Origin: an uncultured Latescibacterota bacterium
GTDB lineage: Bacteria > Latescibacterota > UBA2968 > UBA8231
Direction: 5' to 3'
NCBI GenBank assembly: GCA_951813615.1
Contig: OX638377.1
Location: 5,491,739-5,555,738, forward strand
DNA length: 64,000 nt
Translations under genes and position numbers: made by a program
Shown here: positions 5,408 through 32,770 of the stretch, in pieces
How the letters are laid out: every line of letters starts with the position of its first letter
How positions within the stretch are numbered: the stretch's first letter is position 1
Notes under the pieces: model-generated
The model's database searches: none
The model's input: the letters and a program-made list of their open reading frames with translations, nothing else
Told to the model about the DNA's origin: nothing

Positions 5408-5485
5408 GGTGAAAAGCCTGATTGGAAGGCAAGGAAAAAGGGCGCACAGCACCAAGATAAGCCGGTGGGATTACCCCTTCAAGAC

Positions 5486-5510
5486 AACTCCCCGGAATCC
5501 ATAATGAGCC
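5486..5510 (-). repeat. IS1595-family right terminal inverted repeat
   Basis: On the minus strand it starts GGCTCATTATGGATT, matching the left end at 22 of 25 positions. On the plus strand it ends ATAATGAGCC and so places an ATG (5504-5506) two codons before the element boundary, in frame with the interrupted gene. Confidence 0.9.
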
Positions 5511-8479
5511 AAAAAGTTTTACTGCTGACAATGCTGGCGGGAGGGGCACACGGGCAAACGAGCGAGTGGCTGCAATTGCGCGGCGATCGCCACATGAGTG
5601 GTCGGGCCTCGGGAGTCGGCCAAATGCACGAGCTGCCGCAAGAGCGCTGGCGCTACGACATTGCCGCTTGGGAGGGCTATGTGGAAGTGGCCCAACACGC
5701 GGGCGACGCCTCGGTGTCCTTACCCTTTGCCGCTCCGGTAGCTCCTGGGTACATCGGCACCCAAAGACGGGTCTGGGGGATTGGGCCGCAGGTTTTCGAC
5801 CTTGGCGGCAGCGAGGTGGTCATGCCAGTGGACAATGTCTTCAAAGTGGCCCAGATCCTGCCCGAAGCAGAGGGCTTGCAGCGCTTTGAAATGGGAAATT
5901 CTTTCAGCGACGGCGGGGCCGAGCCCAAGCAAGGCTGGCTGCTCGCGTACGACAGCGGCGAGCCTCGGGTAGTGTGGGAAACCGAGTCCTTTACCAATAC
6001 TTGGGACCCCAATGTTCTCGTGGTTGACGTCGATGTCGATGGCCAGCTCGATATCGTCGTGGCCACCCACTACCGCATCCTCGTCTTCGACGGGGCCACC
6101 GGGGAGACCAAGATGCAGTTGCAGTACCACAGCTACCGCAACTACGGCTGGTTTGGGGCGGCCAACATCGACGACGATCCGTATCCCGAATTCGGCGTGG
6201 TGGCCGATTTCAGCATGCACGCCGAGATCATTGACAACGACGGGACAAAACTGACGCTGCGCTGGCTGCGCGACATTCAGCCCGATCCATCGCAATCGAC
6301 CAAGGTGGTGCGGCCCAAACCGCAGGCTCTAGTCGATGTGGACGGCGACGGGCGCTTCGAGTTGGTGTACAGCATTTACAACGACCAAGGCGACGGCCAG
6401 TGGCACGTGATCGGCGTCGATGCGCTCAGCGGCGAGACTATCTTTGATTTTCCCCAGCACCATTTGCACGGTATGGCCGATGTGGACGACGATGGGCGCT
6501 TGGAACTGTTCGTCTCGGCCACCAGCGGCGAAGCTCTGCCGACCTATGCGCCGCTGGCGGTTTGGTCCTTAGAGGAGGGAGCAGCAACCGTGCGTTGGAG
6601 CCACGAGCGGGGGCGCTTCAGTACGGTATTGCTAAATCAATTGCCCTTGACGGTGAGCACTGGGGCGGCCGACGGCTTGCGCACGGTTTCGACCGGCGAT
6701 GTGGACGGCGATGGGCGACGCGATTTCTTTGCCCTCGCGCCGGATGGGGCCGGCGAAGAGCTAATCGCTTTGGGCAGCGACGCCGCAGGACGCATTGAAA
6801 CGCGGTGGTCGGTGCTCGGTCCAGCCGGGATGGCTCTGGAGACAGCCGCGGTGGCGGACGATGGAGCGGCTTTGCTGTATCTAAAGGGGAGTGGACTTCC
6901 TAACCAAGCGCTGATGCTGGAGCGGGCCTCGGGAGAGCTGCACCAGTGGAGTCGCCAGGCATTTACCCCGGCTGGCACGCCAGTAGTGGCCGATTTGGAA
7001 GGAGATGGCCGGGTGGAAGTGGTCGTGCAGACCGCGACCCGGGAAGTGCTGTGTCTGCAAGCTCCAGGGGAGGGCGGGGGAGAACCCCGACTGCGGTGGC
7101 AGGTACCGGGCTACGGTCAGACCAACAACGCGCCCTACCACTGGGGACTAGTCGCCGCCGACGTGGATGGCGACGGCCGCCGGGAAGTGCTGGCAGCGCG
7201 CGAGGCGGCCAGCGGCAATGCCAGCTTGGTGGCGCTCGCGGCCGATGGCTCCGTCCGCTGGCAGACCGAGTTCGTCGGCTTTGACGGCAGTATGCCTATA
7301 TGGAACTTCAGCGGCCTGTCCTACTGGAGCGTCGGGTATTTCCGCAGCAACGAGTACCTGGATGTGTTCGCCAGTTTGCGGCGCGGCAAGTTGGGCAGCG
7401 AAGTCGGCTTTTTAATTGATGGGCGCAACGGCGAAATCGTCTGGGAATCCAAGGGCTTCATCCTGCCCGAGAACGGCAGCGGCCGCAGTCTGGGCGGGCA
7501 TCCCAGCGCCGTGGGAGATGTGGATGGCGATGGCCTAGAGGAAATCGTGGTGATGTGGCCCGACCGACTGCACATTGTCGATGGGGTCACGGGCACGGCG
7601 CAGGTGGTGCGTCAGGCTTATGGCGACGGACTCAATCCGCTGTTTGAGAGCGACTCCTTTGTCGGCTATGCGTTTCCGGCGGTGGTCGATTTGTTTGGCG
7701 ACAGCCGACCGGAACTCCTCTGGGGGCACTGCAGCTATTTGAGCGCCGTTCTAGACGGTGACGGCCAGCGCATCTGGCAGACCCCGTACCGCAACAACAC
7801 CGAAGTGCGATCGCTGATGGGGGTGGGCGACAGCGACGGCGACGGGACCGTGGAACTGCTGGCTTCGACTGCGGACGGGGTACGCCTATTTCAAGCGGCA
7901 GACGGCGCAATTTTGCTGGAGTTCGACGACGGGGTGCGGGCCCATACGGACGTGGTCTCCGGCGATGTGGACGGCGATGGGCGCGACGAGTTCCTGTTTG
8001 GCAGTGGCACCAAATTGATCTGCGTGGAACAGGAGGAAGGCACCCTGCGCCGGGCCTGGCCCCTCGAAGTTGAGGGTCGCAGCAGTGATATCGCCTTGGC
8101 CGATGCGGATAGGGACGGCTTTTTGGATGCGGTGGTGACGACCACGGACGGCTATGTAAAGGCGTATGTGGGAGAGGCCGCAGCTACTGCCGTACATGCT
8201 GTGGAAAGCACGCCGCAGAAAACGCAGCTATTGCCGCCTTATCCCAACCCTTTCAACAGCCGGGTGCACATCGACTTCAGCGTGGGTCAGGCCGGCAAGG
8301 TGCGGCTGGAGGTTTTCGGCCAGACTGGACAGCGGGTGAAAACGCTGGTAGCGGCGTGGCGCAAACCAGGGGCTTACCAGGTGCTCTGGGACGCGAGCGA
8401 ACTCGCCAGCGGAGTGTACCTCGTGCGCTTGCAAATGGGCGAGATTGTGCAGGAGCGCAAGGTGTCGTTGGTCAAGTGA
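5504..8479 (+). CDS. Secreted FG-GAP/VCBS-repeat protein with C-terminal FlgD-like sorting domain
   Basis: The protein has 991 residues from ATG 5504. The first two codons lie in the insertion sequence, giving MSQKVLLLTMLAGGAHGQ, a signal peptide almost identical to the inferred original MTKKVLLLT. About ten calcium-binding FG-GAP/VCBS motifs follow (DVDVDGQLDIV, DVDGDGRFELV, DVDDDGRLELF, DVDGDGRDEFL and similar), probably forming one or two beta-propellers. The C-terminus carries PPYPNPFNS, VRLEVFGQTGQRV and SGVYLVRLQ, the FlgD/type A sorting domain of T9SS-like secreted proteins. It is the last gene of the operon that starts before the window; loss of coupling to the lipoprotein gene may reduce expression. 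It probably binds carbohydrate or other surface ligands; no catalytic motif was seen. Confidence 0.88.
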   Translation: MSQKVLLLTMLAGGAHGQTSEWLQLRGDRHMSGRASGVGQMHELPQERWRYDIAAWEGYVEVAQHAGDASVSLPFAAPVAPGYIGTQRRVWGIGPQVFDLGGSEVVMPVDNVFKVAQILPEAEGLQRFEMGNSFSDGGAEPKQGWLLAYDSGEPRVVWETESFTNTWDPNVLVVDVDVDGQLDIVVATHYRILVFDGATGETKMQLQYHSYRNYGWFGAANIDDDPYPEFGVVADFSMHAEIIDNDGTKLTLRWLRDIQPDPSQSTKVVRPKPQALVDVDGDGRFELVYSIYNDQGDGQWHVIGVDALSGETIFDFPQHHLHGMADVDDDGRLELFVSATSGEALPTYAPLAVWSLEEGAATVRWSHERGRFSTVLLNQLPLTVSTGAADGLRTVSTGDVDGDGRRDFFALAPDGAGEELIALGSDAAGRIETRWSVLGPAGMALETAAVADDGAALLYLKGSGLPNQALMLERASGELHQWSRQAFTPAGTPVVADLEGDGRVEVVVQTATREVLCLQAPGEGGGEPRLRWQVPGYGQTNNAPYHWGLVAADVDGDGRREVLAAREAASGNASLVALAADGSVRWQTEFVGFDGSMPIWNFSGLSYWSVGYFRSNEYLDVFASLRRGKLGSEVGFLIDGRNGEIVWESKGFILPENGSGRSLGGHPSAVGDVDGDGLEEIVVMWPDRLHIVDGVTGTAQVVRQAYGDGLNPLFESDSFVGYAFPAVVDLFGDSRPELLWGHCSYLSAVLDGDGQRIWQTPYRNNTEVRSLMGVGDSDGDGTVELLASTADGVRLFQAADGAILLEFDDGVRAHTDVVSGDVDGDGRDEFLFGSGTKLICVEQEEGTLRRAWPLEVEGRSSDIALADADRDGFLDAVVTTTDGYVKAYVGEAAATAVHAVESTPQKTQLLPPYPNPFNSRVHIDFSVGQAGKVRLEVFGQTGQRVKTLVAAWRKPGAYQVLWDASELASGVYLVRLQMGEIVQERKVSLVK
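5511..5518 (+). repeat. 8 bp target-site duplication, right copy
   Basis: AAAAAGTT directly follows the right terminal repeat and matches 4447-4454 exactly. In the FG-GAP reading frame it supplies the codons for Lys and Val of MSQKV. Confidence 0.9.
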
Positions 8480-9104: not shown

Positions 9105-9198
9105 GGCTTTTCCTTAACATTGTTACCAAAACTACCTTTATTTTTTAGTGCGCTTAGCCGACATCAAGCAGTGCCCTGACAACTATCTGGAGGAATGT

Positions 9199-10152
9199 AT
9201 GGCCCGGTATCTTCTGAGTCTATCCCTAATCGTCGCGCTGCTAGACGCTGCCAGCGCCCAAAACCCGCCCGCCGATGGTCCTTTCGCCTTCGCCCTGATC
9301 GCGGATATGCCATATTCTCCGACCGACAGCGTCCGCTTTGGGCGGCTCGTCGAGGAAATCAATCGGGCCGAGGGCTTGGAATGGGTCGTTCACGTGGGCG
9401 ATATCAAGGGCGGCAGCAGCCCCTGTAGCGATGGCCTACTACAGAGCCGCTTCGAGTGGTTCCAGCAATTTGCACGCCCTTTCATCTTGGCTCCGGGCGA
9501 CAACGATTGGACCGATTGCCACCGGAGCGGATACCAGCCGCTGGACCGGCTGGCGCGCGTGCGAGCGCTCTTTTTTCCGCAGCCGGGTTGGACTCTGGGC
9601 CAGCACCCCATGCGCGTCGGCACCCAAGGGGGCACCTTCCCCGAGCACGTGCGCTGGACCCACGGGCGGACGAGCTTTGCGGTCTTGCACATCGTCGGCA
9701 GTCGCAATGCCACCGCCAAGTTTAAAGGCCGCACTCGGGCCAATGACAATGAAGTCAAACGTCGCACCGCCGCCGCCATTGCCTGGATGCGTGAAACATT
9801 CACCCAAGCTGCAGAACAGGACCACCGCGCCGTCTTCCTCATCATCCACGCCAATCCGCGCTTTGAGGAGCGCGAAAACGAGCCGGACGGACCGTACGCG
9901 GCTTTTTTGCAGGCCCTAGAGCAAGAAGTCATCCGCTTTGGCCGGCCAGTGGCCCTAGCCCACGGCGATTCCCACTATTTCCGCGTGGACAAGCCGCTGC
10001 GCCAAGCGTCCACGGGCCAGCGCTTGACGCGCTTCACGCGCATCGAGCCTTTCGGCACGCCCGACATCCACTATCTGCGGGTAATCGTCGATCCAGCCGA
10101 CAGCCATATCTTCCAGGTTCACGCCGAAATCGTCGAGGCCAATCTCGACTGA
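9199..10152 (+). CDS. Secreted calcineurin-like metallophosphoesterase
   Basis: The protein has 317 residues. I chose ATG 9199 for the GGAGGA at 9189-9194 and the signal peptide MARYLLSLSLIVALLDAASA; an upstream GTG at 9148 adds unlikely residues. Calcineurin-type motifs are present but altered: ALIADMPYS replaces the usual D-x-H, HVGDIKGG supplies the GD motif, APGDNDWTD replaces GNHD/E, then HANPR, and ALAHGDSHYF replaces GHxH. It is probably a periplasmic or secreted phosphatase or phosphodiesterase of an atypical subgroup. It is divergent from the PhnZ-like gene with 94 bases between them, so phosphate or phosphonate scavenging is a possible shared theme. Confidence 0.72.
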   Translation: MARYLLSLSLIVALLDAASAQNPPADGPFAFALIADMPYSPTDSVRFGRLVEEINRAEGLEWVVHVGDIKGGSSPCSDGLLQSRFEWFQQFARPFILAPGDNDWTDCHRSGYQPLDRLARVRALFFPQPGWTLGQHPMRVGTQGGTFPEHVRWTHGRTSFAVLHIVGSRNATAKFKGRTRANDNEVKRRTAAAIAWMRETFTQAAEQDHRAVFLIIHANPRFEERENEPDGPYAAFLQALEQEVIRFGRPVALAHGDSHYFRVDKPLRQASTGQRLTRFTRIEPFGTPDIHYLRVIVDPADSHIFQVHAEIVEANLD

Positions 10153-10154
10153 GC

Positions 10155-10322
10155 CTAGATCAAAGATGCTTCTCCGGTCTCACGAAGAAGATCTCGCAAA
10201 GGCCGGGATTCGCCATTTTCCTCATTAGCTTCTTCCATTAACAGGGCGTCAACGGCATCCTGTAGGTGGAAAGGAAGCGTCTCCCAATCGGTTTCCCGAG
10301 CGATTTTTTGAAGTTCTGTCAA
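10155..10322 (-). CDS. Small hypothetical protein downstream of the TauD-like gene
   Basis: A 55-residue frame starts at TTG 10322, directly in frame two codons after the TAA of the dioxygenase gene (10326-10328). It reads LTELQKIARETDWETL and ends RDLLRETGEASLI. The composition is protein-like, acidic and helical, similar in style to small antitoxin or addiction-type proteins, but I recognise no family. No ribosome-binding site is visible. It could be translated by reinitiation, be a short readthrough extension, or be the remnant of a gene that lost its start. Confidence 0.3.
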   Translation of the reverse strand: MTELQKIARETDWETLPFHLQDAVDALLMEEANEENGESRPLRDLLRETGEASLI

Positions 10323-10325
10323 TTT

Positions 10326-11534
10326 TTACGCGATGCCGATAATCTCCGGGGGCGTCCCATAGCCACCGGGGATGTGAGCGGCGAGCCACTCCGGAGGATC
10401 GCGTCGCGGCAGCGATAGGACCGGTTCGCCCTTGCAGCTCAAGCGGTACAGCAGCCGGGCGTCGTCGAGCGAGTTGATATTCGACTTGATCGGCGGCGAA
10501 TTGTGCAGGGTCATGTAGTTGTCCCACAGCGTCACATCGCCCGGCGCGTGCAGGTGATCGTAGCGGAACTGCGGCTGCAACACATGCGCTTCGAGCCGGT
10601 CGAGCAACGCGCGCGACGCTTCTGCCGACATTCCCTCCACCTCGACGGCCGGCCGCACTCGTGGCCGCGACGCCCATATCGGACTGTGCAGAGACTTGAT
10701 CCCAGAGCGCGGGTTGGTGCGCACCAGCGGGGCCAGCCAGCCTTGGTCGCCCTCGTTCAACCGCCGCCGTAGCTGAACTTGCTCCAGAGCCGCCTGCTCT
10801 GTCGGCGGCAGCGCCGCAAAGGCCGCGGCCGTGTCGGCAAAGGCCGTCTCGCCGTTCAACGGCAGACACTTGCGCAGCCGCATGAGTTCGCTATCCGAAC
10901 CTTCGTAGTACGGATGAGCCTTGTCGTCGTCGGGTGCCTGCACCCAATTCCCGCCCGGGGCGTCGCGCGCCACCGGCGACTTGTGGGCGAGGAACATCGA
11001 GACGTAGATCGGCAAAGGCTCGTACTCAATGTCCGTGTGCCACGAGCCGCCCCCAGTCACCCTAGCAGGTGCGGCACTGCGTTCCCCCCGAAAGTTGGAC
11101 ACCACCAGCACCGCAGGCGACTCGTGCGGCAGGCATTGCAGTTGGCCGGGGAAGGTGGCGTTGACCCCAGCGGCCGTGCGTCGCTCAAAGGGAATTAGCT
11201 CAAAGGGACCGTCGCTGTCGCCATCTTGCTGAGCTGGTTTGCCCCCGCGCATAAAGTTGTTGGGATGCGGCACCGGCGCGCCCCAGTGGTTGGCGAAGCG
11301 CTCGAAATGGGCTAGGGAAAAGGCTTCCAAGTCCTGCCCGGCAATGCTGACGATGCGAAACTGACTCAGGGCGTCCAGCAAAAAAGCGACCTGCTCGGGA
11401 TTGAGCGGGCGGCACAGATCTATACCGAAGAAGCGCCGCCCGGCACCGCTCGCAGCCAGCGGACCCTCGTTGCGGGCGTCCGCGCCGAATAACTCGCGCA
11501 GCCTTTCATCGAACGGTTCTGTCTTTTGGCCCAT
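10326..11534 (-). CDS. TauD/TfdA-family Fe(II)/2-oxoglutarate dioxygenase
   Basis: The protein has 402 residues, longer than TauD (about 283). The facial triad is visible: GGGSWHTDIEYEP supplies H-x-D and TLWDNYMTLHNSPP the distal His; RLLYRLSCKGEP carries the Arg that would bind 2-oxoglutarate. Such enzymes hydroxylate small acids, sulfonates or amino acids with oxygen. It lies immediately downstream of the two PQQ-ankyrin genes (its ATG is 6 bases from the second gene's stop), so the three are probably co-transcribed. The substrate cannot be deduced. Confidence 0.85.
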   Translation of the reverse strand: MGQKTEPFDERLRELFGADARNEGPLAASGAGRRFFGIDLCRPLNPEQVAFLLDALSQFRIVSIAGQDLEAFSLAHFERFANHWGAPVPHPNNFMRGGKPAQQDGDSDGPFELIPFERRTAAGVNATFPGQLQCLPHESPAVLVVSNFRGERSAAPARVTGGGSWHTDIEYEPLPIYVSMFLAHKSPVARDAPGGNWVQAPDDDKAHPYYEGSDSELMRLRKCLPLNGETAFADTAAAFAALPPTEQAALEQVQLRRRLNEGDQGWLAPLVRTNPRSGIKSLHSPIWASRPRVRPAVEVEGMSAEASRALLDRLEAHVLQPQFRYDHLHAPGDVTLWDNYMTLHNSPPIKSNINSLDDARLLYRLSCKGEPVLSLPRRDPPEWLAAHIPGGYGTPPEIIGIA

Positions 11535-11540
11535 GATGCT

Positions 11541-14500
11541 TTATCGCGCCCCCTCGCGGTTCCCCCGACGCCTCCGCGGAGGAGCGGTGCTGGAGTCTGC
11601 GTCCACCTGCCCTCCGGCGGCCTCCGTGTGCTCTCTGAGTAGCTCGTCGAGGGCCTCGGAGGTATCCAAGTAGTTAGACAATTCATAAGGCGTGATTCTA
11701 AAGCGCCGCGCCCTCACCAGCGGGTCCGCCCCCCGCACCAAGAGTAGACGGGCCATCTCTAGTTGGTCGGCCATGACGGTTTTGTGCAAGGGCGCACTAC
11801 CTCGGTCGTAACGGGTAAACCCACTAGCAATCCCGTCAATATCCACACCGCGATCCAGCAAAAACTCCGCCGCTTCCACCGCGCCACTATAGGCCGCATA
11901 ATTGAGCGCTTCCACCATAATTTGCTCGGCGGTGAGCACGGTGTCCGGATCCGGGTGATACAGATGGCCAACTCCCTCTTTCAACTGGCCACCGGAGTCG
12001 AAGAATTCCGCCATCAAATCGACGCGATTGACGCCAGCGGCAAAGCGCAAGTCCACGTCCGCTCCCTCGGCGACCAACATGCTCGCCAGTTCTAGATTTC
12101 TCTCCCTAAGTGCGTTCCATAACATCTGGCCCCGGTTGCGGTTCACATCCACTCCGTTGGTCACTAGGAGTCGGATCATTTCGGGCTTACTCTCGGCCCA
12201 TTCAAGCTGATCGCTTTCTATGAACATATCCAGCACGCTAAGCGAGTCGTACGTGGCGGCGTTCGGGTCGGAACCTGCTGAGATTAGAGCCGCGGCTAGT
12301 TCAACCGCGTTTTCGGGCAACGGCACTCGTTGCGGCTCACCAGCTAGATGGTGCAAAAGCGTGGCCCCGCGAAAGGACGGGTATTCGTAGTATTCGTCGA
12401 AATAGCCGCGCGCCGTTGCTAGCTCTGGGTATTTAGCGAGCAGCTTCTGTAGCGTCTCGCTGTCTCCGGCATCAATGGCTTCTACGGCCTCGTAAAAAGC
12501 TTTGTGGTCGGCGTCGCTGCGGTCGCGGCCTTGGGGCGGCAGTTCTTCTCCCTCGTGCGGAATGGCCAAGGCGACCAATTCGGGTGGGCGCCTGGAACTG
12601 CCCACTGGGACGACCACGTATTGGCGGCCACCAGCCGTATAGCTCATCGGCGCACCATAGGCATTGCTCGGCAATTCGACGCGACCGATCTCTTCGCCCG
12701 ACGCCAAATCGTACGCCCGCAGATACGCGTCGCGATCGACGAAGTAGTCCCTGCCCGCGTCGGCCAGACCGTGCGGGTCTTCGGAAGTAGCCAACAGGAG
12801 ATTCGGCGTGGCTAGGACAAAGGTGCGATTGTCCCAGCCCATATCTGGCAAGTCGAGGTCCTTGATGGCCGGGTGATCAACCGGCCCCTCGCCTACCGCA
12901 GTCCGCCACAGATGCTCGCCGCTATTCAGGTCAATCGCCGTGATGCTGCCGTACGGCGGCTTGACCAGCGGCAGGCCGCGAGGACCGCGGATGTGCCGGC
13001 CAGCGCGGGCAGAAAACGCCGAATACGCATCTAGGTCGCGCACCGGCCGCAGCTCTACATGGGTAATGGCCATGTGCGATGGCACGTAGAGCACGCCCGT
13101 GCGCGGATCGGCCGCGCCGCCCGCCCAGTCGACACCGCCCGCTTGGCCCGGAACCAATAAAACGCCCTTCTCCGTCGGCGGCGTGTAGAGCGGACCGTAG
13201 TCGTACCGGGCGAGAATAGCCTTGGCTTCCTCGCGCAACTCAGGCGTGAAGTCAATCAGGTCGTCTTCGCTGATGCCTTGGCGCTCAAAGGCCGCCGGCT
13301 TGGTCGGAAACGGCTGCGTCGGCGAAGTCTTCTCGCTGGGCACTTGCGATTGCGGAACTGGCTTTTCCTCGATCGGCCAGATCGGCTCGCCGGTCACGCG
13401 GTCAAAGACAAAGCAAAAGGCCTGTTTGGTAAGCTGAGCGACAACCTTGCGCGGTTGGCCATCGACGACCACGTCCAACAGCAGGGGCACGGCCGCCGGG
13501 TCATAGTCCCACAGACCGTGGTGGACCAATTGATAGTGCCACACCCGCTCGCCGGTCTCGGCCTTTAGACAAACGACTGATTCGCTGAACAGGTTGTCGC
13601 CAGGGCGCTCGCCGCCGTAGTAGTCGTGGCTGGCCGTGCTCACCGGCATGTAGAGGTAGCCCAACTCCTCGTCGGCTGTCATCGTCGCCCAGACGTTCGC
13701 CGCACCGTACTTTTTCCACGCATCGCTTTCCCACGTCTCGTTGCCGTATTCGCCCGCTAACGGAATCGTGTGGAATTCCCACACCTTCTCGCCGGTGCGC
13801 ACGTCAAAGGCCTGCACGTCGCCGGGAGGCATGTACTCGGACGGCGGCCTGAAGTTCGCATCCACGATCGCCGAGCCAACGGCGACCACGTCGCGGCAGA
13901 CTACCGGCGGGGCCGTGACTCCATAGCTCCTGCGCTCTTCTTCACTCAGCGGCCGACGCAGCAAAGCCCCCAAATCGACGCGCCCGTTCTCGCCAAAATT
14001 CGGGTCGGGTAGGCCGGTCTTGGCGTCGATGGAATACAAGTGGGAAGTCGACGTCGCCAGAAACACCCGCTCAATTTCGCCATCGGTCCAATAACTCACC
14101 CCGCGCGAATTGCCCAAGAACGTGGAACGGACCTTCCAAGACTCCGGGTCGAACGCCCACAACTCCTCGCCGGTTTGGCCGTCCACAGCCACGAGAATGT
14201 TGAAGGGCGAACCGTAGTAGAGCACGCCATTGACGGCCAGCGGTGTGCCGCGATTGTTGCCAAAGCGGGGACCGCCACGCCGCCGATCACCCCGACCTCG
14301 TCCCCGGTCCCGATCCCGATCCCGGCTTCGGTTAGCCCTCGCCATCTCGTAGATCTGCTGGTCGCGGGGCCGGTAGCGCCAGATCACGCGCAATTGATCG
14401 AAGTTGTCGCGGTTGATCTGGTCGGCGGGGGTGTAGCGGGTGCCGCCTTGGTCGGCCCCGTAGTACGGCCAATCGACCTCGTCGGCGAATGCCACTCCCG

Positions 14501-14552
14501 CGAGCGACAGCGACAACAAGACCGACAAGGCCCGATAAGCACGTCTATTCAC
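11541..14552 (-). CDS. PQQ-dependent dehydrogenase fused to C-terminal ankyrin repeats (paralogue 2)
   Basis: The protein has 1,003 residues. It starts at GTG 14552, which overlaps the TAG of the upstream paralogue by 8 bases, with a GAGGAG ribosome site inside that gene. Order: signal peptide (1-24); eight-bladed PQQ propeller of the membrane glucose/quinate dehydrogenase type (DWPYYGADQGGTRYTPADQI, EELWAFDPE, YGAPMSYTAGGRQYVVVPVG) to about residue 660; then four to six ankyrin units to about 970 (for example ELAAALISAGSDPNAATYDS and DRGSAPLHKTVMADQLEMARL). The N-terminal domain would oxidise a sugar or alcohol in the periplasm; no heme CxxCH is present, so electrons go to a separate carrier or quinone. 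It differs from paralogue 1 by an Arg/Asp/Gly-rich insert near residues 73-95 and an Arg-rich tail. Confidence 0.88.
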   Translation of the reverse strand: MNRRAYRALSVLLSLSLAGVAFADEVDWPYYGADQGGTRYTPADQINRDNFDQLRVIWRYRPRDQQIYEMARANRSRDRDRDRGRGRGDRRRGGPRFGNNRGTPLAVNGVLYYGSPFNILVAVDGQTGEELWAFDPESWKVRSTFLGNSRGVSYWTDGEIERVFLATSTSHLYSIDAKTGLPDPNFGENGRVDLGALLRRPLSEEERRSYGVTAPPVVCRDVVAVGSAIVDANFRPPSEYMPPGDVQAFDVRTGEKVWEFHTIPLAGEYGNETWESDAWKKYGAANVWATMTADEELGYLYMPVSTASHDYYGGERPGDNLFSESVVCLKAETGERVWHYQLVHHGLWDYDPAAVPLLLDVVVDGQPRKVVAQLTKQAFCFVFDRVTGEPIWPIEEKPVPQSQVPSEKTSPTQPFPTKPAAFERQGISEDDLIDFTPELREEAKAILARYDYGPLYTPPTEKGVLLVPGQAGGVDWAGGAADPRTGVLYVPSHMAITHVELRPVRDLDAYSAFSARAGRHIRGPRGLPLVKPPYGSITAIDLNSGEHLWRTAVGEGPVDHPAIKDLDLPDMGWDNRTFVLATPNLLLATSEDPHGLADAGRDYFVDRDAYLRAYDLASGEEIGRVELPSNAYGAPMSYTAGGRQYVVVPVGSSRRPPELVALAIPHEGEELPPQGRDRSDADHKAFYEAVEAIDAGDSETLQKLLAKYPELATARGYFDEYYEYPSFRGATLLHHLAGEPQRVPLPENAVELAAALISAGSDPNAATYDSLSVLDMFIESDQLEWAESKPEMIRLLVTNGVDVNRNRGQMLWNALRERNLELASMLVAEGADVDLRFAAGVNRVDLMAEFFDSGGQLKEGVGHLYHPDPDTVLTAEQIMVEALNYAAYSGAVEAAEFLLDRGVDIDGIASGFTRYDRGSAPLHKTVMADQLEMARLLLVRGADPLVRARRFRITPYELSNYLDTSEALDELLREHTEAAGGQVDADSSTAPPRRRRGNREGAR
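14262..14335 (-). repeat. Arg-Asp/Gly low-complexity insert in PQQ-ankyrin paralogue 2
   Basis: The DNA is an array of short GATCCC/CGGGAT-like units encoding NRSRDRDRDRGRGRGDRRR then GGP. Paralogue 1 has only GSNPEERSLYF at the same place in the first blade. It looks like expansion of a simple repeat in a surface loop after the duplication. Confidence 0.7.
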
Positions 14553-17493
14553 TGGAATGCTCCTCTTCCGTTCGAGTACCCGCCTTTTCTACGGCGGCCT
14601 CGTGGTGCTCCTTGAGCAGCTCGTCGAGGGCCTCAGAGGTTTCTAAGTAGTAGGTCCACCCGTACGGTGGCGTATCATAGGCCCGGTCTCCCACGAGCGA
14701 GTTCGCGCCCCGCGCCAAAAGCAATTGGGCCATCTCTAGCTGGTTGGCCATGACGGTCTTGTGCAGAGGCGTACTACCGTGGTCGTAACGGTGAAACTCA
14801 CCGGCAAAGCCGTCGATATCCGCACCGCGATCCAGCAAGAATTCCGCCGCTTCCAACGCGCCGCTGTAAGCCGCAAAGTTAAGCGCTTCCACCACGATCT
14901 GCTCGGCGGTGAGCACGGTGTCCGGATTCGGGTGATAGAGGTGGCTGGTCCCCTCTTTCAACTGGCCCTCCGAGTCAAAGAATTCCGCCATCAGATCGAC
15001 GCGGTTGACCCCGGCGGCAAAACGCAAATCCACGGGCGCACCCGCCGCGATCAACATGCGCGCCAAGTCCGAGTCTTCCTCGATAAGCGCGTCCCACAAC
15101 ACCCGACCTCGATTGCGCTCTAAGTCCGCGCCCTCGGCGGCCAAAAGCTGCACCATCTCGGCCTTGCTCCCAGCCCAATCAAGCTGGTCACTGCTTACCA
15201 CCAAGTCCAGCACAGCGACCGAATCATACGTGGTGGCGTTGGGGTCGGCACCGGCTGAGAGCAGGGCCGCGGCTAGTTCAACCGCGTTTTCGGGCAGCGG
15301 CGCTCGTTGCGGCTCGCCGACTACGTGGTGCAAGAGCGTCGCCCCGCGAAAATAAGGGTATTCGTAATACTTGTCGAAATAGCCCCGCGCCGTCGCTAGC
15401 TCGGGGTACTCCGCGAGCAGCTTTTGTAACGTCTCGCTGTCGCCAGCGTCGATGGCTTTTACCGCCTCGTAAAAGGCTTTGTGGTCGGCATCGTTGCGGT
15501 TGGGGTCTTGGGGCGGCAGTTCCTCGCCTTCGTGCGGAATGGCCAAGGCGACCAATTCGGGCGGGCGTCCCAATTCGCCTAGATAATAGTTGCCCAGCGA
15601 CACAACCACATATTGGCGACCACCAGCCGTATAGCTCATCGGCGCACCGTAGGCATTGCTGGGCAATTCGACGCGGCCAATTTCCTCACCCGACGCTAAC
15701 TCGTACGCCCGCAGGTACGCATCCCGATCGACGAAGTAATCCTCGCCGGCGTCGGCGAGGCCATGCGGGTCCTGCGAAGTGGCCAACAGGAGATTCGGCG
15801 TGGCCAAGACGAAGGTGCGGTTGTCCCAGCCCATATCCGGCAGGTCGAGGCCCTTGAGCGCCGGGTGATTAACCGGCCCCTTGCCCACCGTCGTCCGCCA
15901 TATATGCTCGCCGCTATTGAGGTCAATTGCCGTGATGCTGCCGTACGGGGGCTTGACCAGTGGTAGACCACGCGGGCCGACCACGTGCGTGTTGGCGGTG
16001 GCAGAAAACGCCGAGTGGGCCTCCGGGTCATCTACCGAATGCAATTGCACGGTGGTAATGGCCATGTGCGACGGCACGTACAGCACGCCCGTGCGCGGAT
16101 CGGCCGCGCCGCCCGCCCAGTCGGCACCGCCCCATTGACCTGGAACCGACAAAACGCCCTTCTCGGTCGGCGGCGTGTAGAGCGGACCGTAGTCGTACCG
16201 GGCGAGTATGGCCTTGGCTTCCTCGCGCAACTCAGGCGTGAAATCAATGAGATCATCTTCGCTGATGCCTTGGCGCTCGAAAGGGGCTGGCTTGGTTGGA
16301 AAGGGCTGCGTCGGCGAAGTCTTCTCGCTGGGCACTTGCGATTGCGGCACGGGCTTTTCCTCGATCGGCCAGATCGGCTCGCCGGTCACGCGGTCAAGGA
16401 CAAAGCAAAAGGCCTGCTTGGTAAGCTGGGCGACGATCTTGCGCTCTTGGCCATCGACGACCACGTCCAACAACAGAGGCGCAACCGGCGGGTCGTAGTC
16501 CCACAGGCCGTGGTGGACCAACTGATAATGCCACACCCGCTCGCCGGTCTCAGCTTTTAGACAGACGACCGACTCACTGAACAGGTTGTCGCCGGGGCGC
16601 TCACCGCCGTAGTAATCGTGGCTGGCCGTGCTCACCGGCAGATAGAGATAGCCCAACTCCTCGTCGGCCGTCATCGACGCCCACACATTGGCCGCGCCGT
16701 ACTTTTTCCACGCATCGCTCTCCCATGTCTCGTTGCCGAACTCGCCCTCTAACGGAATCGTGTGGAATTCCCACACCTTTTTGCCTGTGCGTACGTCGAA
16801 GGCCTGCACGTCGCCGGGAGGGGTGTACTCTGGTGGCGGCTGGAAGCGCCAGTCGCCCATGGCCGAGCCAACGGCGACCACGTCGCGGCAGACTACAGGG
16901 TGGGAGGTGACCCCGTAGTTCCAGCGCTGCCCTTCGTCCAGCGGCCGGCGCAGCGAGGCCCCCAAATCGACGCGCCCGCCCTCGCCAAAATTCGGGTCGG
17001 GCTCGCCGGTCTTGGCGTCGATGGAGTACAAAAAGGAGGTCGAAGTCGCCATAAATATCCGCTCGACCTCGCCATCGGTCCAATAGCTGACTCCGCGCAA
17101 GTTGCCCAAGAAGCGGTAACCCATCCGCCAAGCCTCTGGGTCGAAGGTCCACAGTTCCTCGCCGCTTTGGCCGTCGAGAGCCACGAGAACGTTAAAGGGC
17201 GAGCCATAGTAAATCACGCCATTGACGGCGAGAGGTGTACCGCGATTGTTGTCAAAGTAGAGGCTGCGCTCCTCCGGGTTGGAGCCAGCCGTCTCGTAGA
17301 TTTGCTGATCGGGGGGGCGGTAGCGCCAGACCACGCGCAACTGATCGAAATTGTCGCGATTGATCTGGTCCGCCAGGGTGTAGCGGGTGGCACCTTGGTC
17401 GGCTCCGTAGTGCGGCCAATCGACATCGCTGGCAAATGCTGCAAGCGCGAGCGCTAACAGCGCCAGCAAGGCCCCACAGGCTCGTCTGTTCAT
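14545..17493 (-). CDS. PQQ-dependent dehydrogenase fused to C-terminal ankyrin repeats (paralogue 1)
   Basis: The protein has 982 residues. ATG 17493 follows a strong GAGAGGAGAAGG ribosome site. The signal peptide MNRRACGALLALLALALAAF is followed by a PQQ beta-propeller (DWPHYGADQGATRYTLADQI; blade motifs such as EELWTFDPE, EKVWEFH-like segments and GAPMSYTAGGRQYVVVSLG) and then, from about residue 680, an ankyrin domain (NAVELAAALLSAGADPNATT, GSTPLHKTVMANQLEMAQL). Most of the protein matches the next gene nearly residue for residue, so they arose by tandem duplication. Periplasmic ankyrin repeats are unusual and suggest docking to a protein partner. No heme-binding motif was seen. It is the first gene of a three-gene unit with the TauD-like dioxygenase. 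Confidence 0.88.
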   Translation of the reverse strand: MNRRACGALLALLALALAAFASDVDWPHYGADQGATRYTLADQINRDNFDQLRVVWRYRPPDQQIYETAGSNPEERSLYFDNNRGTPLAVNGVIYYGSPFNVLVALDGQSGEELWTFDPEAWRMGYRFLGNLRGVSYWTDGEVERIFMATSTSFLYSIDAKTGEPDPNFGEGGRVDLGASLRRPLDEGQRWNYGVTSHPVVCRDVVAVGSAMGDWRFQPPPEYTPPGDVQAFDVRTGKKVWEFHTIPLEGEFGNETWESDAWKKYGAANVWASMTADEELGYLYLPVSTASHDYYGGERPGDNLFSESVVCLKAETGERVWHYQLVHHGLWDYDPPVAPLLLDVVVDGQERKIVAQLTKQAFCFVLDRVTGEPIWPIEEKPVPQSQVPSEKTSPTQPFPTKPAPFERQGISEDDLIDFTPELREEAKAILARYDYGPLYTPPTEKGVLSVPGQWGGADWAGGAADPRTGVLYVPSHMAITTVQLHSVDDPEAHSAFSATANTHVVGPRGLPLVKPPYGSITAIDLNSGEHIWRTTVGKGPVNHPALKGLDLPDMGWDNRTFVLATPNLLLATSQDPHGLADAGEDYFVDRDAYLRAYELASGEEIGRVELPSNAYGAPMSYTAGGRQYVVVSLGNYYLGELGRPPELVALAIPHEGEELPPQDPNRNDADHKAFYEAVKAIDAGDSETLQKLLAEYPELATARGYFDKYYEYPYFRGATLLHHVVGEPQRAPLPENAVELAAALLSAGADPNATTYDSVAVLDLVVSSDQLDWAGSKAEMVQLLAAEGADLERNRGRVLWDALIEEDSDLARMLIAAGAPVDLRFAAGVNRVDLMAEFFDSEGQLKEGTSHLYHPNPDTVLTAEQIVVEALNFAAYSGALEAAEFLLDRGADIDGFAGEFHRYDHGSTPLHKTVMANQLEMAQLLLARGANSLVGDRAYDTPPYGWTYYLETSEALDELLKEHHEAAVEKAGTRTEEEHSSE

Positions 17494-17846: not shown

Positions 17847-20800
17847 TCAATCAAAGGCTGAAAACAATCCCGCCAACTCTTCCTCGTCTTCCTCGGCGGG
17901 GCTGGGGCTGTCGGGAGCGGAAATCGGCTTGAGGTCGAGTGCTTTTTCAACATCGGACCAAGCAGAGAAGAATACTCCTTTGTCTTCTTCGCTATTGTAA
18001 TAGCCCCCAACCAAGATACCCAGTATGTTCGTGTTCCCTGATGCATCTGGCTTCGTGTAGACAGGAGAACCACTATCACCTCCAATTAATAGATCACCAT
18101 TAGCGTGATACGTGAACCTAACATACCCTCGACCAAATGTTAAAAGTTTACCTCCCCCATTAACGATCTGACGTCCCTTATCAACACCTGTTTTTCCACC
18201 AGTAAGCCAAATAGTCTTGCCGTCTGTTGGCTCTTTCGAACCAGTGACTGTATAGGTAGTATCACCTTCACCTCGGATCTTGAGTGGTGCAACTCGTTCG
18301 AGAAATGTATCATCAGGATCAGCATCAAGACAATACTCCCTATCCTCAAACTCATCATACTCTTTATACGTCTCCTGACACCCAGACTTCATTAATTGCG
18401 GGTAGGCAACGAATGCAGCGTCAGCTATGAGGAGATCACGTTGAGCACCTTCGAGCATTTTCCTCTCAATGGTCGGCATACGAAAGACTTTACCGAGAAG
18501 GTGTCTAAATGTATAAGCGGCTGACCGTTGACCAACAAAAGTATTGTAACCGGCAGCAAAGTCTTCATACCTATTCGGTTTGTCCGGAGCAACAACGTGG
18601 GCAGAGACAACGAAGCCAGGAACACCGGAAGTGGTCTCAAGACCACCAAGGGTGATGGTTCCGGCTGACCCAAAACCAATATCTTTCTGATTAACAAGCT
18701 CATAATCTCCCCCCATAGGAATGTTACCTCTGCTTGGGACGAGAATCGGCTTTTCCTGCACAGGCGCAACTGTGACAGTAGCTGCTGGGGAGCAGTTGTT
18801 ATTTGTTACTTGCTCACCTTCTACAACCTCAAGACAGACGTAATAATGATACGTTGTGCTTCTTGTTACTGACGGCACTGTGTGTGTACTGGTAACGATA
18901 ATTGATACTTTCGATGCAACGGTTGGTGTTGTTGCGGTGTTTGGCTCTCTAACACCACCGGTTGCTGGCGAGCTCGTCGTCGAGGTATGCCTATAAACAC
19001 GAACTGTTGTTGCAGGTGCTTGTTGTGTACCAACATTGGTAACCGTTGCTCGCACAGTAATCGTGTTGTTTGATTGCGTTGCTGTTGCATTTGTTGTTGC
19101 AAGATCTGGTGCTTCTACTACCTGTTCCTGTTCCGGTATTCCTTCAGTGGTAACTGTTACCGAACCAGAACAGTTATTACTGGTGTCTGTTTCATTGGTA
19201 ACGGCTTCGGTGCAGAGATAGTAGTAGTGAATCCCCGGCGTCTGTGACGCTGTTGTACGTGCAAAGGTCAAGACTGACCGTCCCGGCGCAAGTGATGATG
19301 TTTTTGCAGTCGTTGAGTGCTGCACTCCTCCCTGTCGTGGATTGTTTGTTTCTGCATTGTGTCGATAGATATGAATTGCTGTTACAGGTGCAACTTCTTC
19401 CCCTTGGTTTGTGACTCGTGGATAAAATGTTATAGTCGCACCCGCTTGCACCGTTTTTGATGACTTTATGTCGTGCTTAATAATCAGATCTGGCCCTGAT
19501 CCTGTTGGTGTTGTCTCTTCTTCTTGCACGACCAAAACTGCAGGCGTTTGGGTACAGTTGTTTGTTGTATCTTCTTCGTTTTCAAGAGCGTTAACACAGG
19601 AGTAATAATAATAAGTACCCGGCTCCTGCGGTTTTGTTGTTGTTATCTGAACTGTTTTTGTTCCATTAGTCGGAACAACAGTGCCGACAACAGAGACGAT
19701 AGTGCCTCCCTGCTTTGGCGTTTGTGTTCTTTGGGTGTGTCGATAGACCTGAACTGTTCTGGTGCTTGTCGGTGCACTAATGTTCTGTATCGTTGTCTGC
19801 AACGTGAGCGGGTCTTCTTGGGTAATAGTTGTCTCTGTTACTTTGAGATCTGGCGCTGTCTCCGGCGTGATGGTGACGGTGCCCGGTGTCGCCGCAATCA
19901 TCACGTTGTCAATGGCAACGGTGGTGAAGTTGTTTTGTGCGATACCGAAGAATCGAAGCGTGAAGCTGTCGCTGATCTGATCGCCGGTAAGGGTAAAGGT
20001 CTCCAGATGCCACTTGCCGTCGGCGTGCTGACCGCTCCAGTTTTGCAGCCGTTGGTAGGAGCCGTTGTTGCCAATGTCAACGCCGAGGAACTCACTGTTG
20101 CTCATCCCCGGATCCAGCCAGCGGTAGAACGACAGGGTAACGGAGTCGTGCGCTGACAGGTCAACCGGCGTGTCAAGGGTCAGAAAACAAACCGAACAGC
20201 CTTCTGCTTTGGCAACAATGTTGCCCGGCCCTTCACCGGGAACACCGCTGTCGGTATCAAACGATGCCGCTTCCCACGTCGTAGTACGCCATGCCCCCAG
20301 TCCTTCTTGGAATGTCTCCAAAAACAGGTTGACCGGCTCTTCGGTCGCCGGGGTCTCCTGCGCCGGGGTCACGGTAAGCTCCCATGCGTTCAGCGTCCCT
20401 GCATCCCCCTGTTCATAGTCGCCGACGCGCAAATGCCAGGTACCCTTCGCCGCCTGTCCCTGTAGGGCATCCGTCGTCGCGATCGTGCCGGTGATATTGT
20501 CTGCAAGGTCCACACCACGGCGTATCCCGTTGTAGAGGGGAACCACGACCCCGCTCGGCGCGACGAGTTCAATTTTCAGGTCGCCTCGGGATGGATGGGT
20601 GATGTCCACCGCCACGGCAACAGAGCCGACCGTCACGTCATCAGGCACGGTAATGCTGCCCACCACCTTCGGGGCCTTGCTGTTATCGGGCAACGCAGCG
20701 TTGGGCGAGTCAGCAAAGGACATCGGCGGCCCAAAGCGCGTCACCGGAGCCACCTTCCTGAGCGCGGTCGTGGTTGGCCGCGCACGCACCTTCCCGGCTA

Positions 20801-22019
20801 ATAGGCGCATACCGGCCGACGGCTTCACGTGAATCGGCGTGGCCGGAAACCGCTGCTTCAGGGCTTCGTAGAGTTGCTTGCCGCCCTGTTGCGTCCAGTA
20901 CGCGCGGTCAATGCCCAAGTAGAGCCGGTCCTCGCCGTCTACAGGCCGAACCCCCGACAGCAGCACCGGCACCCCGGCGAGAATACGCACCACCGTGGCG
21001 TCTTTTTTCTCTGTGCCGAGGATCGAACCCCACACTATCTCCGTAACCGGATCGAGCGAATATCCACCCGGTTGGCCAATCCGCAGCGACGAGACCGCCG
21101 CATCCGCCGGATTGTCTACATAGGCGGCCAGCAGCGCCGCGTCATCCAGCTCAACCCGCCCATCGCAGTTGACATCGCCCAGCGTCATCAAGCCGTGGTG
21201 GGGAAGCGCAAGAGCCGGATCAACACTCAACATGGCCACTAGCAGACCATCGTCCATGTCCACTCGGTCATTATTGTCCACATCGCCAAGTATCCCCTCC
21301 AGCGACGCCACCACCTTCCCCCGCACATTCGGCTCCGCCGACACCTCAATAGCCACCGGCCCCTGACCCGCCGCGACGACAAAGTCCGAGTCCACATACG
21401 TAACCAGCCCGTCCCCCGACACCACCAACCCATACGTCGCAGACGATCCCTCTGCCAGCGGCACCGCCGCAACACGCGCTCCACCCAGCGGTACCCCCGC
21501 CTGCCCATCCACCAGCACCATCTTGCCCGTCCAATGCGCACCATCTACCGTCAAACGATAGAAATACACCCCCGAGGCCGCCGCCCGACCCGCCGCATCC
21601 GTGCCATCCCACCGCGCCCGATAGGACCCTGCGCTCTGCTCCTCATCCACCAGCGTCGCTACCCGCTGCCCCAAGATGTTGAACACCTCCAACCGCACCG
21701 GCGAAGACGCGGCCAGTTGATAGGGAATCAGCGTCGAAGGATTGAACGGATTGGGATAGTTTTGCCCCAGTCCAACTTCTGACGGCAGCACCCAACCCCC
21801 TCCCGCCGCCAACGGCAGCACAAACTGCCCGGCCTCATCCGTAGTGGCTTGTCCCACCGGCCCTCGGCGCAGATCGGCCACGTCAAACAGCACCACCTGC
21901 GCACCCACCACCGGCGATCCGTTTGACAGCCGCACCTGACCCTCAATCATCGGCGACGAAACCGGACTCGCGTCAACGGAAACCAACAGACCAACCAAGC
22001 AGACCATGAGAAACGACAT
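17847..22019 (-). CDS. Mosaic secreted S1-type serine protease with dockerin-like, P-domain and CARDB modules
   Basis: The protein has 1,390 residues. Order: signal peptide (1-17); carboxypeptidase-regulatory-like domain (24-75); a FlgD-like sorting domain placed near the N-terminus (LGQNYPNPFNPST, about 82-165); dockerin-type calcium repeats (GDVDNNDRVDMDD and GDVNCDGRVELDD, about 240-310); a convertase P-domain (about 440-555); a carbohydrate-binding-like beta sandwich (565-710); three CARDB repeats (APDL/GPDL starts, about 720-1070); then a chymotrypsin-like domain with GFVVSAHVV (His), a candidate Asp in DAAFVAYP, and GGDSGSPVY with Ser near 1316. DNA from about 17950 to 19870, encoding CARDB and protease, is visibly more AT-rich than the 5' half. 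An AAAAGGAGC ribosome site precedes ATG 22019. Probably an extracellular protease held in a larger complex. Confidence 0.8.
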   Translation of the reverse strand: MSFLMVCLVGLLVSVDASPVSSPMIEGQVRLSNGSPVVGAQVVLFDVADLRRGPVGQATTDEAGQFVLPLAAGGGWVLPSEVGLGQNYPNPFNPSTLIPYQLAASSPVRLEVFNILGQRVATLVDEEQSAGSYRARWDGTDAAGRAAASGVYFYRLTVDGAHWTGKMVLVDGQAGVPLGGARVAAVPLAEGSSATYGLVVSGDGLVTYVDSDFVVAAGQGPVAIEVSAEPNVRGKVVASLEGILGDVDNNDRVDMDDGLLVAMLSVDPALALPHHGLMTLGDVNCDGRVELDDAALLAAYVDNPADAAVSSLRIGQPGGYSLDPVTEIVWGSILGTEKKDATVVRILAGVPVLLSGVRPVDGEDRLYLGIDRAYWTQQGGKQLYEALKQRFPATPIHVKPSAGMRLLAGKVRARPTTTALRKVAPVTRFGPPMSFADSPNAALPDNSKAPKVVGSITVPDDVTVGSVAVAVDITHPSRGDLKIELVAPSGVVVPLYNGIRRGVDLADNITGTIATTDALQGQAAKGTWHLRVGDYEQGDAGTLNAWELTVTPAQETPATEEPVNLFLETFQEGLGAWRTTTWEAASFDTDSGVPGEGPGNIVAKAEGCSVCFLTLDTPVDLSAHDSVTLSFYRWLDPGMSNSEFLGVDIGNNGSYQRLQNWSGQHADGKWHLETFTLTGDQISDSFTLRFFGIAQNNFTTVAIDNVMIAATPGTVTITPETAPDLKVTETTITQEDPLTLQTTIQNISAPTSTRTVQVYRHTQRTQTPKQGGTIVSVVGTVVPTNGTKTVQITTTKPQEPGTYYYYSCVNALENEEDTTNNCTQTPAVLVVQEEETTPTGSGPDLIIKHDIKSSKTVQAGATITFYPRVTNQGEEVAPVTAIHIYRHNAETNNPRQGGVQHSTTAKTSSLAPGRSVLTFARTTASQTPGIHYYYLCTEAVTNETDTSNNCSGSVTVTTEGIPEQEQVVEAPDLATTNATATQSNNTITVRATVTNVGTQQAPATTVRVYRHTSTTSSPATGGVREPNTATTPTVASKVSIIVTSTHTVPSVTRSTTYHYYVCLEVVEGEQVTNNNCSPAATVTVAPVQEKPILVPSRGNIPMGGDYELVNQKDIGFGSAGTITLGGLETTSGVPGFVVSAHVVAPDKPNRYEDFAAGYNTFVGQRSAAYTFRHLLGKVFRMPTIERKMLEGAQRDLLIADAAFVAYPQLMKSGCQETYKEYDEFEDREYCLDADPDDTFLERVAPLKIRGEGDTTYTVTGSKEPTDGKTIWLTGGKTGVDKGRQIVNGGGKLLTFGRGYVRFTYHANGDLLIGGDSGSPVYTKPDASGNTNILGILVGGYYNSEEDKGVFFSAWSDVEKALDLKPISAPDSPSPAEEDEEELAGLFSAFD

Positions 22020-31729: not shown

Positions 31730-32770
31730 TCAGGCTGATACCTCCACGTGCGAGGGCAGCTTGCGCGTAAACCGCGCAAACAGGGCTTTGAGCGCCACGT
31801 CGCTGCGCGCCGCAAGGCTGGTCACGACCACGGTTGCCCACACACTGCGGCGCGAAATTTTGACCTGCTGCCCACTGGTAAAATCTGCGTGGGCGTGGAT
31901 GCGGCGCAACGTCAGCACGGCCATGCCCAACGCCCAAAGACAGAACCGGCGAATGCCGGTTTCGCGTCCGGGGATGAGCAACGTGAACGCCAGCGCATTG
32001 CCGAGGTGCATCTGGGCCACGCCGACCAATTGGCTCAGTGCCGTGCGAAACGCAGGATTTGTCTGGCCGGCCTCGAGTGAGCGCAGATCAAACCCGGCTT
32101 GCTGGAACACGTCGCGCGGCAGCCAACACGCGCCGCGCGCCCGGTCATCCCAGATGTCCTTGAGGATGTTGGTCATCTGCAAGCCTTGGCCGAACGACAC
32201 GGCGAGCTGCAACAACTTCTTGCGCTGGCGGTCGATTTCCGCCGAATAGTCGCAGAACAGTTCGGTGAGCATCTCGCCGACGACGCCGGCGACGTGGTAG
32301 CAATAGCGGTCGAGGTGGGGGAGGTCGTCTAGGCCTTTGAGGCCCGGGCTTTGCTGGAACTCGGCCATACCGCGCGACATGATCCGCACGCAGCGCACGA
32401 GTGCGGTGCGCTGCCGCTCGGAAAACCCTTGGGTGAGTCGCAGCACCCTTGGGGTGTTGGCCACGAGCTGATGCTCGGCGGGCAACATGTTGTCAGACAG
32501 GCGCGGCGCGAGCTGTGCGGCAAATGGGGCGGGCGGCTCCTCTCCGGCGACGACTCGGATGAATCGCTCGGAAAACTCGCGCTTTTCACTAGCCGAAAGG
32601 GTCGGCTCATCCTCGATAGTGTCGGCAATGCGGCACAGCAAATACGCGTTGCCGACGACATCGCGCAGGCCCGACGGAAGCTGCGGAATAGTGAGCGCGA
32701 ATGTGCGTGAGACATCTTGCAGAATCGCGTGCTGCCACGCTAGGTCAGCGGTATGTTCGTCAGTTGTCAT
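31730..32770 (-). CDS. Squalene/phytoene synthase family protein
   Basis: The protein has 346 residues. Both aspartate-rich motifs for Mg-diphosphate binding are present: LLCRIADTIEDEPTLS (near residue 50) and LQMTNILKDIWDDRARGACW (near 200), with YCYHVAGVVGEMLTELF between them. It joins two farnesyl or geranylgeranyl diphosphates head to head. The W-x-x-R-G-x-C-W-LP segment favours squalene synthase over phytoene synthase. No other hopanoid or carotenoid genes are near. Its start overlaps the end of the DUF4143 ATPase gene by 11 bases. Confidence 0.9.
   Translation of the reverse strand: MTTDEHTADLAWQHAILQDVSRTFALTIPQLPSGLRDVVGNAYLLCRIADTIEDEPTLSASEKREFSERFIRVVAGEEPPAPFAAQLAPRLSDNMLPAEHQLVANTPRVLRLTQGFSERQRTALVRCVRIMSRGMAEFQQSPGLKGLDDLPHLDRYCYHVAGVVGEMLTELFCDYSAEIDRQRKKLLQLAVSFGQGLQMTNILKDIWDDRARGACWLPRDVFQQAGFDLRSLEAGQTNPAFRTALSQLVGVAQMHLGNALAFTLLIPGRETGIRRFCLWALGMAVLTLRRIHAHADFTSGQQVKISRRSVWATVVVTSLAARSDVALKALFARFTRKLPSHVEVSA

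Follow-up and report, generated by a model that had tools for sequence, protein, structure and literature searches.

A type IX secretion sorting domain nested near the N-terminus heads a family of Latescibacterota proteins

Introduction

The signal recognised by the type IX secretion system (T9SS) is defined as C-terminal, and reviews call it a conserved C-terminal domain (CTD). A gene of an uncultured Latescibacterota bacterium raises the question of what such a domain is doing at the opposite end of a protein. The gene lies in a stretch of 64,000 nucleotides of contig OX638377.1 (positions 5,491,739 to 5,555,738; hereafter the window, numbered from its first letter), where we confirmed an open reading frame at 17847–22019 on the minus strand with a product of 1390 amino acids. 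A sequence-only reading of this gene had described a mosaic protease, with a FlgD-like sorting domain at residues 82–165 ahead of dockerin-like repeats, a P-domain, CARDB repeats and a terminal protease. Here we report that the sorting domain is nested inside another domain and belongs to a conserved gene family, and we weigh its probable role as an N-terminal export or docking tag.

Results

Nesting of the sorting domain in a split CarboxypepD_reg domain

The T9SS type-A sorting profile TIGR04183 matched residues 88–168 with 37.8 bits (cut-off 23) and FlgD_ig matched residues 101–157 with 37.7 bits, giving a full extent of approximately residues 78–172 and agreeing with the near-N-terminal placement read earlier; PF18962 scored 18.6 bits, below its cut-off of 27. 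Since a C-terminal position is part of the definition and this domain occupies residues 78–172 of 1390, we do not class it among the T9SS CTDs and regard it instead as a variant with probably the same function.

In the full-length proteins, CarboxypepD_reg (PF13620) was unreported or scored only about 19–29 bits, because the domain is split. With the sorting domain excised, it reached 41.9 bits in the window protein and 36.4–42.0 bits in three distant relatives (41.1 and 42.0 bits in two of them), over nearly the whole profile (positions 1/2 to 74/80 of 82 in the window protein and these two). Controls with the second half reversed gave 32.4 bits for the window protein and 31.9 and 38.9 bits for two distant relatives; part of the gain on excision reflects the shorter context, and the second half itself adds 3–10 bits.

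An AlphaFold2 model of residues 19–236, built on an alignment of window and public-locus sequences only, showed the strand order half-sandwich, immunoglobulin (Ig)-like unit, half-sandwich, with a mean predicted local distance difference test score (pLDDT) of 78, a predicted template modelling score (pTM) of 0.52, and pLDDT above 90 across most of the nested unit. Foldseek matched the nested module to PorZ (5m11), PorU (6za2), FlgD (3osv) and the RemA CTD in its T9SS-bound form (8gl6_D), and to other Ig-like proteins as well. These results indicate that the T9SS type-A sorting domain sits nested in a split CarboxypepD_reg domain of the window protein.

A 5' cassette shared by genes with different cargo

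We searched the organism's own genome (6.27 Mb, one contig) with the window protein. Residues 1 to approximately 317 recur in many genes at about 50–60% identity with differing C-termini, and the closest paralogue is 76% identical over residues 1–735. This N-terminal module heads 18 genes, in which the cargo behind it includes LDLR-B and PD40 propellers, WD40, ankyrin, leucine-rich repeats (LRR) plus a metalloprotease-like part, GSDH and CARDB; one of the 18 is a second copy of the protease architecture, two have a frameshift or truncation at the module, a further one is a short chimera, and another has lost the nested domain. In a tandem pair (locus L011, 8087/11287), DNA identity is 95.4% over 820 nucleotides (nt), starting 24 nt upstream of the start codon and reaching about residue 265, beyond which the cargo differs. 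Because tandem pairs are near-identical at the 5' end and unrelated past that point, the unit behaves as a shuffled 5' cassette. A 335-residue chimera (L013 6783–7790) runs from the module abruptly into a PD40 repeat, as if recombined with its tandem neighbour.

Two parts of the proposed mosaic stand, the domain at an unusual end and a 3' half compositionally foreign to the genome; the misplaced domain, however, is a conserved module found on 18 genes and across the phylum. It is a conserved family trait, neither a one-off mosaic nor an accident of the window gene.

Nested and C-terminal copies compared

A module scan of a public genome collection yielded 80 loci, picked by hit score and not at random: L081 and 79 from other, mostly Fibrobacterota–Chlorobiota–Bacteroidota (FCB), lineages. 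The best, L081 (a metagenome-assembled genome (MAG) labelled Gemmatimonadota, IRC4_bin_45), bears the full module and the only N-terminal sorting domain of the 80. In the other 79 loci, the approximately 120 sorting domains all finish no more than 25 residues from the stop, and in nearly every case a single residue before it, which confirms for loci of other phyla that a FlgD-like sorting domain is normally C-terminal. In the regions of the own genome around window-protein matches, 51 of 66 copies are C-terminal (plus one frameshift artefact) and 15 are N-terminal, the latter all belonging to the module family; two other window proteins, at 5246–8479 (+) and 40085–42448 (−), have their sorting domain in the usual place, at the C-terminus. 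Among 34 nested proteins, not one combines an N-terminal copy with a C-terminal one. The literature we searched, in which few subscription journals were covered, described no internal or N-terminal CTD.

Nested copies from the own genome, relatives and L081 keep PNPFN (36/36), GxY (36/36) and K or R at alignment position 166 (35/36), which most plausibly corresponds to the near-terminal lysine singled out by Flavobacterium johnsoniae structures (PMC10994853). Positions 171–172 are DG in all 36, whereas C-terminal copies stop short of them, 162 of 174 ending in K or R before the stop. A tree bearing on a single origin of the nested copies required 6 changes against 32 with shuffled labels; its 93 columns are too few for a verdict, and the nested copies may have arisen once.

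The nested copies are under purifying selection: the ratio of nonsynonymous to synonymous substitution rates (dN/dS) was 0.06–0.28 in 12 of 13 pairs (the remaining pair had too few synonymous changes) and was usually below that of the following linker. In one gene (L010 6020–9133), an in-frame deletion of about 300 nt relative to its 97%-identical tandem neighbour (9141–11594) has removed the nested domain, and the protein ends in a C-terminal sorting domain. The counterpart in genome G001 has the same deletion, its C-terminus being lost in an assembly gap.

Selection bears directly on the possibility that the domain is a fossil, left when the stop codon of a short protein ending in an ordinary sorting domain was lost and the protein became fused to downstream genes. 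The cassette up to the DG exit does resemble a small secreted protein, and some members are truncated near that exit (L011 16403, L019 5262); against this, the domain is under purifying selection, is conserved across the phylum and a few other FCB lineages, and is followed by the continuing half of its host domain. We regard this origin as highly improbable.

Distribution and T9SS machinery

Most genomes of the genus, and one of a sister genus (G023), have a full-length match to the module, and more distant nested forms, with formylglycine-generating enzyme (FGE)-sulfatase, LRR or metalloprotease cargo, occur in other families of the phylum. Outside the phylum, among 52 sorting-domain-rich genomes, at least two strong nested proteins were found in one KSB1 MAG, and the matches listed included weaker ones in Kryptoniota, Ignavibacteriae and 'Gemmatimonas' MAGs. 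Two of these weaker ones are GH30-type glycosidases from the Kryptoniota and Ignavibacteriae MAGs (L228 720–2666, L227 1561–3606), in which the sorting domain is nested near the N-terminus and its exit reads GVGG/GFGG. SprA is present in 63 of 64 genomes of the phylum; in 16 genomes beyond it, the module profile, which at that distance is essentially the sorting domain alone, matched in 4 of 5 with strong SprA and in 0 of 11 others.

The own genome encodes SprA (606 bits), a PorU-like C25 peptidase (262.7 bits) and, about 1.2 kb from the latter, the best PorV-family match (233.5 bits). The PorV family has 7 matches above cut-off and 13 in all, and could supply specialised carriers; in this expanded family (G000:C1:5745893-5747593 and others), one 639-residue frame holds two copies.

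We consider it moderately probable that the nested domain serves, at the N-terminal side and probably without being cleaved, as a tag for T9SS export or docking that has spread as a 5' cassette. The principal alternative is a nested Ig-like unit with no sorting role, a structural spacer or adhesion domain in proteins that are periplasmic or leave by another route. FlgD_ig domains occur in flagellar hook caps too (as the 3osv match recalls), known CTDs need their C-terminal residues (PMC4804311), and GVGG or GFGG replaces the DG exit in the Kryptoniota and Ignavibacteriae copies, all of which speak for a spacer. Against it stand the retention of the CTD motifs up to the near-terminal K or R, the low dN/dS, the mutual exclusion with C-terminal copies together with the L010 deletion, and the co-occurrence of the sorting domain with SprA; cargo such as GH30 enzymes and proteases is also of kinds usually secreted. 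A spacer without sorting function appears unlikely to us.

Several points nevertheless weigh against the tag reading. The contribution of the second half in the excision test was modest (3–10 bits), and the pTM of 0.52 leaves the domain packing uncertain. The L010 compensation case is a single gene, one natural experiment carrying no statistic. A GldM_4th search for the T9SS motor gave no match, its positive control being likewise empty. In Porphyromonas gingivalis, export is blocked when a CTD lacks its last few residues (PMC4804311), and the CTDs that have been studied are all C-terminal (PMC10202324).

Compositional break and origin of the protease

The CARDB and protease half had been described as more AT-rich from about position 19870, and this was borne out: guanine-plus-cytosine (GC) content at fourfold sites is 0.77 before and 0.34 after residue 721 (range 718–751; twice the log-likelihood difference 159), at approximately window position 19859, other genes of the window lying mostly at 0.65–0.88. 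The proposed fusion of a foreign segment to a native module is correct as to the foreign composition of the 3' half and incorrect as to the place, since the junction between module and protease block is near residue 318 and the break comes some 400 residues further on. In three fused homologues the breaks fall at residues 519, 705 and 614. As all four lie well inside the protease block, past the module junction, the break cannot be taken for the fusion point, and we rejected it as such.

A sister species (G006) has a stand-alone protease without the module, consisting of a signal peptide, the same pro-domain, CARDB repeats and the protease, which is AT-rich nearly throughout, pro-domain included (fourfold GC 0.22–0.53 in 75-residue bins). 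The simplest account is that a foreign AT-rich protease was fused to the cassette, after which conversion or amelioration proceeded from its 5' side. On balance we lean towards this course of events, in which the acquired protease gained the cassette and GC-rich sequence then extended 3': the fused copies are GC-rich up to residues 519–721, and the protease is confined to 3 of 386 genomes, all of the window organism's genus. No donor was found among those 386 genomes, and the Thr/Asn-rich CARDB region may carry an AT bias of its own; both count against it. Elsewhere in the window, an ATPase-like gene (32760–34121, −) with a GC content of 0.51, below that of its neighbours, was possibly acquired.

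Pfam supported the P-domain (71.8 bits) and the CARDB repeats (37.8 bits) of the sequence-only reading. On its assignment of the terminal domain to the S1 proteases with GGDSGSPVY the evidence is mixed: the chymotrypsin-like H/D/S pattern (SAH, D, GGDSGSPVY) is kept in five homologues, but no Pfam family matched. A PDB sequence search with the terminal protease likewise gave no significant match, and a single-sequence structure model reached a pLDDT of only 32. Feature coordinates are collected in Table 1. By reading, window positions 11541–14552 and 14545–17493 (both −) encode tandem pyrroloquinoline quinone (PQQ)-dehydrogenase-like proteins, the second with ankyrin-like repeats after the dehydrogenase part.

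Table 1 Features of the protease gene, in residues of the product and in window positions.
Feature	Residues	Window position	Strand	Basis
Whole gene	1390 aa	17847..22019	-	
Signal peptide-like start	1-18	21966..22019	-	By reading; hydrophobic start common to all paralogues
CarboxypepD_reg-like domain, first half	24-77	21789..21950	-	Profile and excision test
Nested T9SS type-A sorting (FlgD-like) domain, DG exit at end	78-172	21504..21788	-	TIGR04183 37.8 bits; position and DG statistics; fold matches
CarboxypepD_reg-like domain, second half	195-232	21324..21437	-	Excision test with controls; AlphaFold2 strands
Dockerin-like calcium-loop pair	243-306	21102..21293	-	Alignment; PF00404 above cut-off in paralogues
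Putative protease pro-domain	324-408	20796..21050	-	Alignment, role inferred; also in the sister species' stand-alone protease
P_proprotein domain	465-549	20373..20627	-	PF01483 71.8 bits
Jelly-roll-like segment (putative)	560-715	19875..20342	-	Alignment; no Pfam match
CARDB-type repeats, AT-rich	718-1083	18771..19868	-	PF07705 37.8 bits, two stretches; third repeat by self-similarity
Trypsin/chymotrypsin-like protease domain, AT-rich	1085-1375	17895..18767	-	H/D/S motifs kept in 5 homologues; no Pfam match
Compositional break, best at residue 721	718-751	19767..19868		Change-point on fourfold sites

Dockerin-like repeats and the cellulosome question

The dockerin-like pair is present by alignment at about residues 243–306, but PF00404 (Dockerin type I) gave no match in the window protein at E-values up to 1; the same profile exceeds its cut-off in several paralogues. 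A cellulosome-like assembly, which these repeats had suggested, was not borne out, because a cohesin search of the own genome found none while its positive control matched. Cohesins occur in 50 of 64 genomes of the phylum, but are missing from most of the genus; its two clear carriers (G004, G005) have no full-length module match, and its module-rich genomes are without cohesin except for one weak match (G007). Cohesins and the full module thus hardly coincide in the genus, and we rejected the cellulosome. A calcium-stabilised linker is the better reading of the dockerin-like pair here.

Discussion

The cassette comprises a ribosome-binding region, a putative signal peptide and a CarboxypepD_reg domain carrying the T9SS type-A domain in one loop, often followed by the dockerin-like calcium pair. 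Duplication and recombination would have set it before a variety of cargo, which in the window protein is a CARDB/trypsin-like protease together with its pro-domain. Once the protein has left by the Sec pathway, the nested domain most likely adopts a self-contained Ig-like fold, which the SprA/PorV machinery most likely recognises as it would a C-terminal copy, so that the cargo would cross the outer membrane with the tag on its N-terminal side. As both ends of the tag are anchored in its host domain, we infer that PorU cannot usefully cut it off; the tag may then stay bound to a PorV-type carrier and display the C-terminal cargo on the cell surface. It is conceivable, though we hold it doubtful, that these proteins form a distinct N-terminal class of T9SS cargo, with a locked tag, a dedicated PorV-family carrier, no cleavage and interchangeable surface cargo.

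If such a class is real, T9SS recognition needs no free C-terminus. The nested family makes testable both the translocon's need for a free C-terminus and the need for PorU cleavage, and annotation pipelines or secretome counts that assume a C-terminal position would miss or misread such cargo.

Compared with known systems, the proteins share dockerin-like calcium repeats with dockerin/cohesin cellulosomes; they differ in that the own genome has no cohesin and the module's cargo is diverse and non-cellulolytic. The CarboxypepD_reg (PF13620) beta-sandwich is the host of the insertion, and in the window protein it differs in being split by a 95-residue sorting domain. With T9SS type-A CTDs (TIGR04183/PF18962; RemA, PorU, PorZ), the nested domain shares motifs, Ig-like fold matches and a near-terminal basic residue, a signal peptide-like start upstream, and a genome with SprA, PorV and a PorU-like peptidase. 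It differs in standing directly after the signal peptide, inside another domain, and in what comes after it: DG and as many as 2,800 residues of cargo, in place of K or R and a stop. The CTDs of PorU and PorZ remain uncleaved (PMC10202324) and offer a precedent for a CTD kept on its protein and bound to a PorV/PorQ barrel; those CTDs are C-terminal, whereas the nested domain would be retained at the N-terminal side of its cargo.

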